Part shown: piece after piece, positions 13,856-38,308 of the stretch | How positions within the stretch are numbered: the stretch's first letter is position 1 | How the letters are laid out: the number at the start of each line of letters is the position of its first letter | From: Clostridia bacterium | GTDB taxonomy: Bacteria; Bacillota; Clostridia; UMGS1883 | Direction of reading: 5' to 3' | Length of the DNA: 64,000 nucleotides | Assembly: GCA_017472685.1 (NCBI GenBank) | Contig: JAFUOO010000011.1 | Coordinates: 62,001-126,000 of the forward strand | Program-made: the position numbers and the translations under genes | The notes under the pieces: generated by a model | The model's database searches: none | Seen by the model: only the letters and a program-made list of their open reading frames with translations | What the model was told of the DNA's origin: nothing

Positions 13856-15043
13856 ATGGATATTAAAATTACACCGTGTGCTTTGCACGGAAACATGGAA
13901 ATACCGCCTTCAAAGAGCTATTCTCACCGAGGGCTCATTGCGGCGTATTTAGGAGGCGGAGAAGCCATAGGCGTAGGCGAAAGCGCCGACACCTGCGCTA
14001 CACGTGAGTGCCTTAGTGCATTAAGCGAAAAAAAGCCCCTTTTTGCCAACGAGTCGGGCTCGACACTCCGCTTTATGATACCTATTGCACTTGCACTTAA
14101 CGGCGAGGTTGAAATTTCAGGCTCGGAAAGGCTTATGGAAAGACCCCTTGACGATTATTTCAAAATATTCGACGAAAAGGGCATTACGTACAAACTTGAA
14201 AACAACACCCTTTACGCAAAGGGCACACTTACAGGCGGCGACTACTTTATAAGAGGCGATGTTTCCAGTCAGTTTATAACGGGGCTTCTGTTTGCACTGC
14301 CCCTTATAAAAGAAAATTCGAGGATTGTCATTACCACAAAGCTTGAAAGCAAGGCGTATGTGGACATGACACTTGATGTTTTAAAAAAGTTCGGTATTGA
14401 AATAACCGCGGAAGAAAATACCTACGTTATAAAGGGCAACCAGAAGTACCAAAGTGAAACCTATACGGTTGAGGGCGATTTTTCCCAGGCGGCGTTTTTC
14501 CTTGCAATGGGCGATGTTAACCTTACGGGGCTTAATAAAGATTCTATTCAGGGCGACAAGGAAATTGTTGAAGTATACCGCCGCATGGGTATGGAGATTG
14601 AAGATACAGAAAATGGCTACAGAACAAACGGCAAGGCACTTAAAAACATTGAGGTGGATGTAAGCCAGATACCCGACTGTGTGCCCGTGCTGGCGTGTGT
14701 TATGGCTGTAAGTGAGGGCGAGGGCAGGATTGTGAATGCCGCACGCCTCAGGATAAAGGAAAGCGACCGACTTGAGGCTATAACAAAGGAGCTTAAAAAC
14801 ATTGGCGCCTCTGTTATTGAGGGTGAGGATTATCTTATCATACAGGGCAAAAAGAGCCTTACAGGCGGTGTGTGCTCATCGCATAATGACCACCGCATCG
14901 CAATGGCACTTGCCACAATTTCACCCTACTGTACAAATGAGGTTATTATAAAAGGCGCGGAAAGCGTAAAAAAGAGTATGCCTGATTTCTGGGAAAGATT
15001 CAGGCAGTTGGGAGGTAAGGCAGATGAGCTCAATCTGGGGTAA
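13856..15043 (+). CDS. aroA: 3-phosphoshikimate 1-carboxyvinyltransferase (EPSP synthase)
   Basis: The 395-aa protein has the family landmarks: PPSKSYSHRG near the N-terminus (substrate-binding Lys/Ser/Arg), ESGSTLRFMIP, GDVSSQFITGLLFALP, RIKESDRLEAI and NDHRIAMALA. It joins shikimate 3-phosphate and phosphoenolpyruvate. It is a little shorter than the common 425-430 residues. It begins five bases after aroB and overlaps aroC by 20 bases, so translation is probably coupled. Confidence 0.95.
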   Translation: MDIKITPCALHGNMEIPPSKSYSHRGLIAAYLGGGEAIGVGESADTCATRECLSALSEKKPLFANESGSTLRFMIPIALALNGEVEISGSERLMERPLDDYFKIFDEKGITYKLENNTLYAKGTLTGGDYFIRGDVSSQFITGLLFALPLIKENSRIVITTKLESKAYVDMTLDVLKKFGIEITAEENTYVIKGNQKYQSETYTVEGDFSQAAFFLAMGDVNLTGLNKDSIQGDKEIVEVYRRMGMEIEDTENGYRTNGKALKNIEVDVSQIPDCVPVLACVMAVSEGEGRIVNAARLRIKESDRLEAITKELKNIGASVIEGEDYLIIQGKKSLTGGVCSSHNDHRIAMALATISPYCTNEVIIKGAESVKKSMPDFWERFRQLGGKADELNLG

Positions 15044-16112
15044 CAATATAAAGCTTTCTGTTTTCGGCGAAAGCCATTCAAGAGGCATAGGCGGTGTTAT
15101 AGACAACCTGCCCCCGGGAATAGAAATTGACATGGAGGAAATTGCCTTCGAGCTTAAAAGACGGCAGACAGGCTCCTCCAGTTTAGCAACAGCGAGAAAA
15201 GAGCCCGACATTCCCGAAATTTTGTCGGGTGTTGTAAACGGCAAAACAACAGGCACACCCCTTGCGTTTGTTATTTACAATCAGGATCAGCATTCCAAGG
15301 ACTACGACAACTTAAAAACCACCGCACGCCCTTCTCATGCGGACTACACAGGCTACCTGCGCTATAAGGGCTTTAACGACCACCGCGGCGGCGGACATTT
15401 TTCGGGCAGACTTACTGCACCCTTGGTTTTTGCAGGTGCCATTGCAAAGTGTGCACTTAAAAAGAAGGGCATATATACAGTATCACGCATTAAAAGTATT
15501 ATGGACATTGAGGATAATCAGTGGGATTTATCCTGTATGAGCATTGATAAGGCAAATGAACTTAAGAACATGATACTGCCTACCGTATCACCCGATGCGG
15601 CAAAGAAAATGGAAGATAGAGTGCTTCAGTTAAAGAGCGAGCTTGACAGCGCAGGCGGCGTTATTGAATGCGCTATCATGAATATGGAAAAGGGCATAGG
15701 CAACCCCATATTCGACGCTTTTGAATCGCGCCTTTCGTCGCTTATTTTCTCCGTGCCCGCAGTCAAGGGGCTGGAATTCGGCGAAGGCTTCAACGTAACA
15801 AAAATGCGCGGCAGTGAAGCTAACGACACTCTTTATACTGACGGTGAAAATATTTACACACGCACAAACCACGACGGCGGTATAAACGGCGGCATAACAA
15901 ACGGCATGCCCATTGTGTTCAGAACGGCAATCAAGCCCACTGCATCCATTTCCCGTGAGCAGGATAGCGTGAATTTTGTGGAAAAAACCAACGAAAAGCT
16001 CACAATCCAAGGCAGACACGATGCCTGCATCGTTGTAAGAGCGGTAAGCGTTATTGATGCCTGTGCCGCACTTTGTGCATTCGACTATCTTGTTGAAGCA
16101 AAAATGTTTTAA
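15024..16112 (+). CDS. aroC: Chorismate synthase
   Basis: The 362-aa enzyme shows GNNIKLSVFGESHSRGIGGV at the N-terminus, then RRQTGSSSLATARKEPD, RPSHADYTGYLRY and GGGHFSGRLTAPLV, the FMN and substrate signatures of chorismate synthase. It forms chorismate from EPSP using reduced FMN. The start lies inside the end of aroA, with GGGAGG from aroA codons acting as ribosome binding site. Confidence 0.95.
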   Translation: MSSIWGNNIKLSVFGESHSRGIGGVIDNLPPGIEIDMEEIAFELKRRQTGSSSLATARKEPDIPEILSGVVNGKTTGTPLAFVIYNQDQHSKDYDNLKTTARPSHADYTGYLRYKGFNDHRGGGHFSGRLTAPLVFAGAIAKCALKKKGIYTVSRIKSIMDIEDNQWDLSCMSIDKANELKNMILPTVSPDAAKKMEDRVLQLKSELDSAGGVIECAIMNMEKGIGNPIFDAFESRLSSLIFSVPAVKGLEFGEGFNVTKMRGSEANDTLYTDGENIYTRTNHDGGINGGITNGMPIVFRTAIKPTASISREQDSVNFVEKTNEKLTIQGRHDACIVVRAVSVIDACAALCAFDYLVEAKMF

Positions 16113-16126
16113 AAAAGGTGAAAAAC

Positions 16127-17224
16127 ATGGAAAATCTTGAATATTACAGAGCAGAAATAGACAAAATAGATACAGAGCTTATTTCTCTTATGGAAAAGAG
16201 AATGGATGTGGCAAAGCATATCGGCACTGTTAAGCTCAAAAACGGTATGCAGGTACTTGACACAGCACGTGAAGAACTTGTTCTCAGAAGCAGAATGGAA
16301 AAGGTAACTGAGAAGGAATACGAGGGCGTTATAGAAGAGTTTTTCATAAAGGTTATGGCTCTTTCACGCTCCGTACAGCAAAAGCTTATCGACTCCTTTG
16401 AAATGAAAAAGGCACTTGTGGGCAGAGCCTGCTATCAGGGTGTTGACGGAGGCTACGGCTCCATTGCCGCATCAAAAATTTTCGACGAAAACATTTACAA
16501 CGTAAAAACCTTTGAAAATGTTATCGAAGAGGTTGAAGCGGGCAACGCTGACTACGGTGTGCTTCCTTTGGAAAACTCCACAACGGGCAGTATAACCGAT
16601 GTTCTGGATATGCTTTGTCAGCACGAGGTTTACATAGTGGGCGAGACGGCCATTAAGGTGGAACACAATCTTTTGGTTGCACCCGGCACAAAGGAAGCTG
16701 ACATTACCGATGTTTATTCCCACGAACAGGGCTTTTTCCAGTGCAAGGAATTCCTCAAGGACAAAAACTGGACCCTTAACAGCGTTGTAAACACCGCCGT
16801 AGGTGCAAAAACCGTGAGCGAAAGCGGTGATAAGACAAAGGCGGCAATTGCTTCAAAGAGAGCGGCAAAGCTCTATAACCTCCAGGTGCTTCACGAAAGC
16901 ATCAATTCGGGTAAGGCTAATGCCACAAGGTTTATTGTTATCTCCAAAAACCCCATTCTCAGCGATGGCGCAACAAAGTCGGCAGTTGTGTTCAGCGTGC
17001 CTCACGTTTCGGGCGCACTTGTGCGTGCATTGGAAATTTTTGCACGCCACAGCGTAAACCTACTCAAGATTGAATCCCGCCCCGTTATTGACCGCATGGG
17101 CGAGTACCGCTTTTTTGCCGAGCTCGAGGGCAATATAAACGATGAGAACATGATAAATGCTGTAAATGAGCTCAAAAAGTACGCCACAAGCTATAAATAC
17201 CTGGGAAACTTTAAAAAAATATGA
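16127..17224 (+). CDS. pheA: Bifunctional chorismate mutase / prephenate dehydratase
   Basis: The ATG at 16127 is preferred to the GTG at 16118 because the latter is part of the ribosome site AAGGTG. The roughly 365-aa protein has an AroQ chorismate mutase domain (first ~90 residues: EIDKIDTELISLMEKRMDVA), a prephenate dehydratase domain (YQGVDGGYGSIAA, PLENSTTGSI, NATRFIVI) and a C-terminal ACT domain containing the regulatory IESRP motif. It makes phenylpyruvate and is probably inhibited by phenylalanine through the ACT domain. The first residues of the dehydratase domain read CYQGVDGGYG rather than the common AxxGxxGSYS. Confidence 0.93.
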   Translation: MENLEYYRAEIDKIDTELISLMEKRMDVAKHIGTVKLKNGMQVLDTAREELVLRSRMEKVTEKEYEGVIEEFFIKVMALSRSVQQKLIDSFEMKKALVGRACYQGVDGGYGSIAASKIFDENIYNVKTFENVIEEVEAGNADYGVLPLENSTTGSITDVLDMLCQHEVYIVGETAIKVEHNLLVAPGTKEADITDVYSHEQGFFQCKEFLKDKNWTLNSVVNTAVGAKTVSESGDKTKAAIASKRAAKLYNLQVLHESINSGKANATRFIVISKNPILSDGATKSAVVFSVPHVSGALVRALEIFARHSVNLLKIESRPVIDRMGEYRFFAELEGNINDENMINAVNELKKYATSYKYLGNFKKI

Positions 17225-35042: not shown

Positions 35043-36086
35043 TCAAGGTGTAATCATTTCCTTGATTGAGGGAAGAATATATTCTGCTTTTTCCTTTTCA
35101 AAGTAGCCGCGTGCTCTTTCACCTGAAACGCCTGTTAAAACTGCCAGGAAATCGCTTCCCATTTTCTTTGCGGCAAAAAGGTCGCTGCCTGCATCGCCTA
35201 CAACCAGTGCCTTTGAAAGAAGACTCTTGTCATAGTCGCCCGCAACTATCCTTTCGTCGGGATAGCTTGTTCTGTAAAGCGCCTTAAGGAAAATGTAAGG
35301 CTCGGGCTTTGTGAGAAGCACCTTTTTGCCCAAAGAAGCAAAATGCTCCTCGGCATTCATAATGTGTGTATAGGTTGCAATTGCATCACTCTCAAAAAAG
35401 CCTCTTATATCCCAGAGCTTCATTGGGTTTGAAACATCGCGGTCGCTTCTGCCTGTGGCAATCATGAGCTTTTTGCCCTTTTCTTTAAGTGTTTTAAGCA
35501 CTAAAAGAATGTCCTGGAGTTCTATTGCGGGAACCTCGCGCATTTCCATGGAGGGTTTCCCCGGGCAACGGGGCTTTGTGTTGTAAAAAACCTCAAACTC
35601 GTCACTGCCGAAGTACCACTCCTGAAACGAGTCGCGGCACATGTTCCATACAAGCTCATTTCTGCGGCAAACCTCTACGGGAAGGTTAAGATTCTCCGAT
35701 AAAAGACGGGCACATTCCTCATAAAGGTCAAATGCCATAAGGGAGCTACCGTTTATGTAGTGATAAACCTCCTCATAGGAGGAGCATTTCCCCGTGAGCA
35801 TGTATGTGAAAATTATGTAGCCCAAATCCCAGTTGGAATTTACACCCCGCTCCTTTACCAAGGTTATGGTTTTGTCGTTATAAAAAACCTCACTGCGGAT
35901 TTCTTTTACATTATCAAGGGCGGCGATGGGGTCAAAGGGCTTACTGCCGTAGTAATGAGGAGCATTCAACAGCTCGTACACCGTCAGTGCGGCAATGTCC
36001 CAATAATTCTGCTCGCTTGTGATAACGCCGTCCATGTCGAATATGATATATTCGTATTTGTCCAAAAATTGTGCACATTCAGCCAT
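35043..36086 (-). CDS. HAD-superfamily hydrolase with large cap insert
   Basis: The 347-aa protein has HAD motif I FDMDGV (Asp17, Asp19), motif II MIATGRSDRDV, motif III Lys in LTKPEPYIFLKAL and motif IV VVGDAGSDLFAAKKMG. The region from about residue 45 to 190 is an unusually large helical cap. It is probably a phosphatase. Its start overlaps the stop of the HisB-like gene by one base, so it belongs to the same cassette; a histidinol-phosphatase-like or related role is an inference from position only. Confidence 0.82.
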   Translation of the reverse strand: MAECAQFLDKYEYIIFDMDGVITSEQNYWDIAALTVYELLNAPHYYGSKPFDPIAALDNVKEIRSEVFYNDKTITLVKERGVNSNWDLGYIIFTYMLTGKCSSYEEVYHYINGSSLMAFDLYEECARLLSENLNLPVEVCRRNELVWNMCRDSFQEWYFGSDEFEVFYNTKPRCPGKPSMEMREVPAIELQDILLVLKTLKEKGKKLMIATGRSDRDVSNPMKLWDIRGFFESDAIATYTHIMNAEEHFASLGKKVLLTKPEPYIFLKALYRTSYPDERIVAGDYDKSLLSKALVVGDAGSDLFAAKKMGSDFLAVLTGVSGERARGYFEKEKAEYILPSIKEMITP

Positions 36087-36700
36087 CAGATTTCTTCAAC
36101 CTCGAATGTAACCTTGCCTGCAACACCGCTTGTCATGCCCTTGCGGCTTTCGTCAACGGTAAAGGCATTTTTAAGCGCAATACCGAAACTGCGGAAAATT
36201 GCCTCCCAGATGTGGTGTGTGTTTTCACCGCGTGTAAGGTCAATCTGCACTGTGCAGCAAGCGCCCTGGCAGAATGCGTCAAGGAACACCAAAAGCTCCT
36301 CAGAAGCCATGCCCTCAACATTTTCGGGAATGGAAACCGCAGGATAAAAACCGAAAAATGCTCTCTGCTCAAAGCTTATTGTTGTGTGTGCAAGCGCCTC
36401 GTCAATCATACCGAAGCCGTCGCCGAAGCCCATAACACCATCTGTCGTTTCAAGCTTTCTTGCAAAGGCTTTACCAAGCGCCTGCCCCAAATCCTCTGTA
36501 ACAAGGTGAGCAAGGCAGAAATCTGTAAGAGAAACCTCTGCTTCAATATTGAAGCCCGATCTCCACACTGTCTGTTCAATCATGTGATTTAAAAAGGGGA
36601 GAGGCGTCCTTATTTTGCTGCGGTAGTCCTTCTTAACGGGACCGTCAGAAAGAATTACCTGCATTGTGCTTTCTGTGGTTTTACGTGTAACTTTAATCAT
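36086..36700 (-). CDS. HisB-like (imidazoleglycerol-phosphate dehydratase family) protein, diverged
   Basis: The 204-aa protein is clearly of the HisB dehydratase fold: PFLNHMIEQ at 35-43, EDLGQALGKAF at 69-79, MIDEALA, and RGENTHHIWEA at 157-167. Several residues expected for manganese binding are changed. The usual FLDHM is FLNHM, the following RHG is RSG (Ser48), HHTVED is HLVTED (Leu66 for the second His), the GHAY His is Asp, and the NHAG His is lost. The C-terminal HHxxE (162-166) is kept. It may act on another substrate or be inactive. It is flanked by HisD-like and HAD genes. Confidence 0.8.
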   Translation of the reverse strand: MIKVTRKTTESTMQVILSDGPVKKDYRSKIRTPLPFLNHMIEQTVWRSGFNIEAEVSLTDFCLAHLVTEDLGQALGKAFARKLETTDGVMGFGDGFGMIDEALAHTTISFEQRAFFGFYPAVSIPENVEGMASEELLVFLDAFCQGACCTVQIDLTRGENTHHIWEAIFRSFGIALKNAFTVDESRKGMTSGVAGKVTFEVEEI

Positions 36701-36719
36701 TTCTATCTGTCCTTTTGTT

Positions 36720-38012
36720 TTATTTACGTTCCTTTACTGCCAAGCCGTGTGTGTCAAAGCCTTCAACGGTTGCCATCTTGTATGCATAGTCACGCACTCT
36801 TTCAAAGCCCTCACGTGATGCATAGCCTATGGAGGAGCGCTTTAAGAAGTCAAATACGGAAACTGAAGAATATGTCTTTGCAAAGCCGCCTGTGGGTAAA
36901 ATTGCATTAGGTCCTAAAAGGAAGTTGCAAAGTGTTACGGGTGTGTATTCGCCCAGAAGGATTTCGCCGGCATTCTTAATGTCGGGCAGAACATCAAAGG
37001 GCTTATCGCACATAACCTCCATGTGCTCGGGAGCGTAGTCGTTTACAAACTGAACGCTTTCAGCAAGTGAATCTGTAAGGATAACACCACCGTAGCCCTG
37101 CTCAACAGCTTCGATAAAGCTCTTTCTTCTTTCGGAAATCTTTTCCTTCTGTCTTTCGATAATGGGAAGCACCGCATCAACAAGCTCCTTTGAATGTGTA
37201 ACTAAAAGCGCGGAGGAGTCGGGGCCGTGCTCTGCTTCAATCATCCAGTCAAGAGCAACCTTTTCGGGGTCAGCTTTTTCGTCAGCTAAGATAATAACCT
37301 CACTGGGACCTGCGGGCAGACCTGCATCAATCTGCTGCGAGAGCACTCTCTTTGCGGCTGTTGCATAGCTGTTGCCGGGACCGATAATTTTGTGGCACTT
37401 GGGAACAGTTTCTGTGCCGTAGGCTACTGCGGCAACTGCCTGGATGCCGCCCATTTTATAAATTTCTGTAATGCCGATAATTTTTGCAGCTGTTAAAATT
37501 GCATCGTCAACCTCGCCTTTCTGATTGGGAGGTGTGACAACAACAATCTTTTCAACGCCTGCAACCTTTGCGGGCACACCGAGCATAAGTAAAACCGAGG
37601 GGAAGCTGCCCTTGCCGCCGGGCACGTAAAGGCAAACATCAACTATGGGTGTTGTCTTTTCGCCTACCATGAGCCCCTTGTCAACGTTTGTAAACCACAT
37701 TTCCTCGGGGAGCTGCTTTTCGTGAAAGTCGTAAATGTTCTTGTATGCGTATTCAATAGCCTCTCTTGTTTCCTTGTCAAGGCGGTTGTAGGCTGTTTCA
37801 ATTTCCTCTGCTGTCACCTTGATTTTGTCCTGTGTAAGGCTTACGCGGTCGAACTTTTCTGTGTATTTCAAAACAGCGGCATCGCCGAAGTCTCTCACCT
37901 CGTCGGAAATTTCCTTTGCAATTTTCATCTGCTCGGTAATGTCCGTTTCTGCACGCTTCATTATTTTTGTTTTTTCTTCCTGTGTCATTTCAGAAAGCTT
38001 GTAGATATTCAT
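36720..38012 (-). CDS. Histidinol-dehydrogenase-family enzyme, diverged at zinc ligands
   Basis: ATG 38012 is chosen with GGAAGG nine bases upstream. The 430-aa protein aligns along its length to HisD: LYVPGG, AKVAGVEKIVVVTPP, GPGNSYATAAKR, AEHGPDS and APEH (Glu329/His330). Against E. coli HisD (offset three), zinc ligand Gln259 appears as Glu262, His262 is kept, Asp360 appears as Asn363, and His419 is kept as His422. Substrate-contact His367 is Ala370. The acid/amide swap could preserve a metal site, but the substrate probably differs. It heads a cassette with the HisB-like and HAD genes; no other his genes are near. Confidence 0.82.
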   Translation of the reverse strand: MNIYKLSEMTQEEKTKIMKRAETDITEQMKIAKEISDEVRDFGDAAVLKYTEKFDRVSLTQDKIKVTAEEIETAYNRLDKETREAIEYAYKNIYDFHEKQLPEEMWFTNVDKGLMVGEKTTPIVDVCLYVPGGKGSFPSVLLMLGVPAKVAGVEKIVVVTPPNQKGEVDDAILTAAKIIGITEIYKMGGIQAVAAVAYGTETVPKCHKIIGPGNSYATAAKRVLSQQIDAGLPAGPSEVIILADEKADPEKVALDWMIEAEHGPDSSALLVTHSKELVDAVLPIIERQKEKISERRKSFIEAVEQGYGGVILTDSLAESVQFVNDYAPEHMEVMCDKPFDVLPDIKNAGEILLGEYTPVTLCNFLLGPNAILPTGGFAKTYSSVSVFDFLKRSSIGYASREGFERVRDYAYKMATVEGFDTHGLAVKERK

Positions 38013-38187: not shown

Positions 38188-38308
38188 TTTCCACACAAAA
38201 GCTACAAAAAATATGTGGAAGTTGTGGAAAAGTCTGTTTAAAACCGCAAAATGCACATTTTGAGCCTGTGGAAAACACAAAACGCTACAATGTGGAAAGT
38301 GTGGAAAA
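38188..38308 (+). repeat. Cluster of TGTGGAA(AA) motifs
   Basis: TGTGGAA occurs in direct orientation at 38214, 38223, 38267, 38291 and 38300, and inverted (TTTCCACA) at 38188. Two pairs are spaced exactly nine bases apart. TGTGGAAAA differs by one base from the DnaA box TGTGGATAA, and TGTGGAA by one base from the Spo0A box TGTCGAA. Confidence 0.85.

Follow-up and report, generated by a model that had tools for sequence, protein, structure and literature searches.

What do three enzymes that resemble members of the histidine pathway make, when residues that should bind their metals and substrates have been exchanged? Histidine synthesis is usually presented as a single, unvarying pathway shared by bacteria, archaea, fungi and plants. 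In the window, by which is meant the whole 64,000-nucleotide stretch of Clostridia bacterium DNA analysed here, lies a cassette of HisD-like, HisB-like and HAD genes. The original prediction, made from the sequence alone, described this trio as overlapping or closely spaced and suspected a pathway other than histidine synthesis. The arrangement is as described, with the open reading frames at 35043-38012 on the minus strand:

36720..38012, minus strand: HisD', a HisD-family four-electron NAD dehydrogenase of 430 aa; Pfam PF00815 (Histidinol_dh), 507 bits.
36086..36700, minus strand: HisB', an IGPD-fold dehydratase of 204 aa; Pfam PF00475 (IGPD), 107 bits.
35043..36086, minus strand: HAD-superfamily phosphatase of 347 aa, a putative imidazoleglycerol-phosphate phosphatase; weak Pfam HAD matches only.

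The hisB' and HAD genes share one base, and hisD' and hisB' are 19 bases apart. HisD' passes TIGR00069 with 476 bits against a cut-off of 244, although such a pass is not diagnostic, as HisD paralogs from other contexts pass too. HisB' falls under the cut-offs of all 13 NCBIfam HisB models that it matches (at best 106 bits against 189). The same trio is present in Monoglobus pectinilyticus, where the annotation for HisB' reads 'hypothetical protein'. The M. pectinilyticus molecule NZ_OY725736.1 (locus L003), a 518-kb 'plasmid 12', carries the housekeeping genes sigH, pta, proB and dusB and looks like a piece of chromosome with the wrong label. Three DnaA-box-like TTTTCCACA sites lie on the same strand between hisD' and rnc in the window (38223-38308). 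The whole window holds six such sites against 1.7 expected, which is above chance, and comparable clusters of TTTTCCACA or TTATCCACA stand upstream of hisD' in three relatives (L073, L074 and L086).

The changes in HisD' are uniform. An alignment of 78 divergent HisDs from cassettes with 30 canonical HisDs of related Clostridia, read in E. coli numbering, shows Q259 replaced by Glu, D360 by Asn and H367 by Ala in every one of the 78 and in none of the 30. The counterparts in the window protein are Glu259, Asn363 and Ala370; the original prediction saw all three exchanges and placed the last two correctly, but numbered the first Glu262, a position that holds a retained histidine. The full zinc ligand set of Q259, H262, D360 and H419 is therefore not found in HisD', which keeps H262 and H419 together with E414. 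The catalytic pair Glu326/His327 is retained in 78/78; the roles of this pair and of the zinc ligands are described in PMC5585171. Retention of Glu414 was considered as proof of an imidazole substrate and dropped, because other HisD paralogs retain it too. The G-R-Y-A/S-H motif of HpsN, which contains a Zn/sulfonate-binding His, reads GKGSF in HisD'. In the tree of the family HisD' forms a single clade (support 99), whose sister (support 100) consists of plasmid HisD-like proteins of Klebsiella, Pantoea and rhizobia. HisD-like genes with the Glu/Asn/Ala signature are found at five such loci (L004, L005, L195, L196 and L199), on plasmids of Klebsiella, Pantoea, Phyllobacterium and Sinorhizobium. 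All of these proteins are annotated histidinol dehydrogenase and are encoded in uncharacterised catabolic clusters, some of which include an alpha-hydroxy-acid oxidase; a HisC-like transaminase stands beside one.

HisB' has been altered at both its metal and its phosphate sites. In Arabidopsis IGPD, Mn1 is held by H47, H74, H169 and E173 and Mn2 by H73, E77, H145 and H170 (PMC4509728). Across 85 aligned HisB' sequences H74 is lost without exception, to Val, Leu or Ile (Leu66 in the window protein), and at the position of H145 66 sequences have His, 16 have Gln and 3 have another residue (Gln152 in the window protein). The other ligands, H47, H73, E77, H169, H170 and E173, are invariant, but the full di-Mn set is not found. 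R99, S199 and K201, which grip the phosphate of imidazoleglycerol phosphate (IGP) in the closed IGPD complex (PMC4509728), have become Gly in 83/85, Gly in 85/85 and Ala in 84/85, respectively, while H55 and K177 are Arg in 85/85. R121 is thus the sole residue kept from the phosphate site formed by R99, K177, R121, S199 and K201. HisB' has Arg47, Arg113 and Arg170 and retains the acid-base Glu, with Arg47 standing in for the phosphate-binding H55. The loss of the ligand at Leu66 and the retention of the C-terminal HHxxE had both been read correctly at the outset, but Ser48, counted then among the lost ligands, is not a ligand position, and the replaced residue is its neighbour Arg47. The AlphaFold model of HisB' (pLDDT 93) matches IGPD structures, for example 4mu4 with a TM-score of 0.83, and HisB' forms one clade in its tree (support 100).

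Pseudogene decay is ruled out by the invariance of these changes across relatives, and HisD' and HisB' are, as the alignments present them, a constrained, functional family. Since the swaps are invariant, the catalytic residues are kept and the trio stays together in most of 85 loci, both are likely to be working enzymes with altered substrates, as the original prediction proposed for the HisD-like protein.

The suspicion of a non-histidine pathway is not supported. A search of the window's genome (89% complete) for a second, canonical hisD or hisB found neither; it has a single hisD and a single hisB, both of the divergent type, so that one half of the case against a non-histidine role, that these are the only copies, stands. 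The remark that other his genes are missing fits the window but not the genome, where hisZ-hisG-hisH-hisF and hisA-hisIE lie elsewhere, and thus IGP can be made. No HisC was found in this genome at the cut-off, the best TIGR01141 match being 139 bits against 277, and the class I aminotransferases inspected there are of the aspartate and diaminopimelate type.

The same pattern extends to relatives. Scores for hisB in 60 related genomes are bimodal, 98-119 bits for the divergent and 194-232 bits for the canonical type: 19 genomes have the divergent type only, beside a divergent hisD, 35 have the canonical type only and none has both. HisC (TIGR01141) is over or at its cut-off in 34 of the 35 canonical genomes (one, G028, scores 276.1 against a cut-off of 276.55) and in none of the 19 divergent ones. 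The association gives a Fisher p of ~1e-13, uncorrected for kinship, and as the genomes are related these counts are not independent events. A single family (f1) contains both canonical and divergent states, so one ending of the lower pathway has been exchanged for the other. Among 84,980 species genomes scanned, 181 HisB' relatives came up, of which 80 were kept; where named, these belong to Bacillota or to unclassified Clostridia-like genomes. HisD' adjoins HisB' in 83/85 loci. Ructibacterium gallinarum DSM 107454 and Petroclostridium sp. X23 are among the isolates with the divergent cassette. The complete genome of the latter has the divergent hisB only, and the single HisC-like gene in it that passes the cut-off adjoins a gene for DAHP synthase, a neighbour that makes it probably an aromatic aminotransferase. 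This complete genome, together with 12 divergent relatives whose genomes are 91% complete or more, rules out assembly gaps as the source of the missing hisC, hisB and hisD. That the cassette replaces hisB, hisC and hisD is strongly supported.

Could the cassette nevertheless have nothing to do with histidine, and serve a polyol or amino-sugar pathway in auxotrophs that happen to retain the upper his genes? HisD-family paralogs with the same signature do occur in catabolic clusters on proteobacterial plasmids, and no regulation shared with histidine has been seen: no Rfam riboswitch or leader (T-box, His-leader) matched at threshold in the window or in the divergent loci scanned, and no HisR-like palindrome was evident in the loci scanned. 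Such control was accordingly dropped as a link to histidine. Physical linkage was also rejected as a tie, as other his genes lie near the cassette in 1/85 loci (L155, with hisZG-hisA-hisIE ~3 kb downstream), which is about chance level by our own estimate. An unrelated role is improbable all the same. The divergent hisB and the canonical one exclude each other strictly across the 60 relatives, hisG is found in 16 of the 19 divergent genomes, and a dead-end pathway to IGP would hardly persist so consistently. In the window's genome the cassette supplies the only hisD and hisB beside a whole upper pathway. At L155 a single 551-aa frame (14663-16318) matches both HisZ and HisG, an apparent HisZ-HisG fusion, and in another relative (G042) the hisG match likewise lies inside a 552-aa frame.

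In the standard pathway the HisC step comes mid-route and acts on a phosphorylated ketone. If HisC is missing here, while HisB and HisD are altered at just those parts that see the amino group and the phosphate, the most economical explanation is a shift of amination to the end of the route. The change of substrate most likely falls within histidine synthesis, towards imidazole intermediates that are neither aminated nor phosphorylated. We lean towards the cassette being a replacement for hisB-hisC-hisN-hisD, the lower part of histidine synthesis, with the amino group added last. The fuller proposal is evenly poised: many Clostridia would have a second natural ending to histidine synthesis, in which neofunctionalised HisD- and HisB-fold enzymes work without HisC and IGP first loses its phosphate, then is oxidised to imidazolylglycerate and dehydrated to imidazolepyruvate, with transamination as the final step. 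The link to histidine, all of the substrates and the sequence of steps are our inference from residues and genome content.

The route would run as follows. The usual upper pathway would deliver IGP, from which the HAD enzyme would strip the phosphate to give imidazoleglycerol. This compound has a 2-hydroxyl in place of the 2-amino group of histidinol, plus a 3-hydroxyl. HisD', with two NAD+, would oxidise the terminal CH2OH to a carboxylate, giving 2,3-dihydroxy-3-(imidazol-4-yl)propanoate (imidazolylglycerate) by the chemistry of HisD, but on a substrate with a 2-hydroxyl where histidinol bears its amino group. HisB' would then dehydrate the vicinal diol of imidazolylglycerate by the IGPD mechanism to imidazolepyruvate, and the arginine-rich site made up of Arg47, Arg113 and Arg170 seems positioned to bind a carboxylate in the place of the phosphate. 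A general aspartate or aromatic aminotransferase could convert imidazolepyruvate to L-histidine, and with this as the final step HisC would not be needed. No description of such a route was found in the open-access papers searched. That HisD-like proteins of plasmid catabolic clusters, some of them encoding an alpha-hydroxy-acid oxidase, bear the Glu/Asn/Ala signature was counted in favour of the route. HpsN (DHPS 3-dehydrogenase; PMC11382572), a HisD-fold enzyme, oxidises a primary alcohol with a 2-hydroxyl to the corresponding acid. Since it handles this substrate with the canonical Gln/Asp ligands, the Glu/Asn swap would not be strictly required for a 2-hydroxy substrate.

The enzymes might also act in another order. 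HisB' could take its usual first step, from IGP to imidazoleacetol phosphate, after which the HAD enzyme would give imidazoleacetol, HisD' would give imidazolepyruvate and a general aminotransferase would again finish. This leaves HisB on its normal substrate and explains the missing HisC, and some anion binding may be left, as R121 is kept and H55 and K177 are now Arg. However, 83-85 of the 85 sequences have Gly, Gly and Ala in place of the three phosphate holders (PMC4509728), and we regard this order as unlikely. Loss of R99, S199 and K201 favours an order in which the HAD phosphatase would act first.

A more conservative explanation keeps the ordinary chemistry and has only the enzymes diverge: HisB' would form imidazoleacetol phosphate, an unrelated aminotransferase would do the work of HisC, the HAD enzyme would be the histidinol-phosphate phosphatase and HisD' would oxidise histidinol. 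Phosphatases in this pathway are frequently exchanged, and HisC too may diverge (PMC5764234, PMC7311316), and class I aminotransferases are present. We think this rather unlikely, as it leaves unexplained both the joint change of three enzymes and the invariant alteration of the amino-liganding zinc site and the phosphate site. Nor does the cassette bring an aminotransferase: in the cassette loci no gene for one travels with it.

The HAD phosphatase, the proposed first enzyme of the rerouted ending, is not a universal member of the trio. Its catalytic motifs DxD, T, K and GDxxxD are intact, with D17, D19, T211, K260, D298 and D302 invariant in 22 sequences, and its AlphaFold model has a pLDDT of 95.7. 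The gene is in or near the cassette at 70/85 loci and absent nearby at 15/85, and no copy was found anywhere in six of eight genomes searched among those without an adjacent one. Because the HAD is wholly absent from these six, the phosphatase would seem to be replaceable, and on this gene content another phosphatase must presumably act at the loci that lack it. In 62/85 loci (for example at L120, 10656-11207, and L165, 11683-12234) the cassette has a fourth gene, for a beta subunit of the class I fumarase type (PF05683). This Fe-S hydro-lyase subunit was rejected as a histidine enzyme and is probably part of an ordinary fumarase. Where it lies in the cassette, the genomes searched encode a single alpha and a single beta subunit at separate places. 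In the window's genome the two subunits are adjacent on another contig (C15), an ordinary pair away from the cassette, and genome G004 has neither.

In many gut Clostridia, Monoglobus among them, the second half of histidine synthesis appears to run differently, through a changed dehydratase and a changed dehydrogenase and without an aminotransferase reserved for the pathway. If this is true of such common organisms, predictions of auxotrophy would change, since genomes with the cassette look as though they lack hisC and hisB. Two textbook families of metalloenzymes would each gain a new specificity, and a natural case would be at hand of a pathway re-ordered through altered metal and phosphate sites. 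On this reading the cassette would belong to a variant of the known histidine pathway.

Each member of the cassette can be compared with known systems. The HAD enzyme has its nearest solved structure in the uncharacterised 1qyi of S. aureus, a HAD phosphatase that shares its motifs and its whole-length fold; 1qyi is without an assigned function, and the Pfam HAD matches are weak. HisB' has the fold of canonical HisB/IGPD (PF00475), its acid-base Glu and six of its metal ligands, but differs in the lost H74, the variable H145, the replaced phosphate site and its NCBIfam scores. HisD' has the fold of canonical HisD (EC 1.1.1.23, TIGR00069), the Glu326/His327 pair, the zinc ligands H262 and H419, and E414, but is only 36-41% identical to those compared individually, carries Q259E, D360N and H367A and forms a clade of its own. 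It is closer to the plasmid HisD-like dehydrogenases of its sister clade, with 47-49% identity and the identical Glu/Asn/Ala signature, although their neighbours are ABC transporters and other dehydrogenases, with no HisB' or HAD listed alongside. HpsN has the Gln/Asp ligands and a sulfonate-binding His motif (PMC11382572), both of which HisD' lacks, but its four-electron oxidation of a primary alcohol beside a secondary hydroxyl, carried out on a HisD fold, is the closest precedent for the reaction proposed for HisD'.
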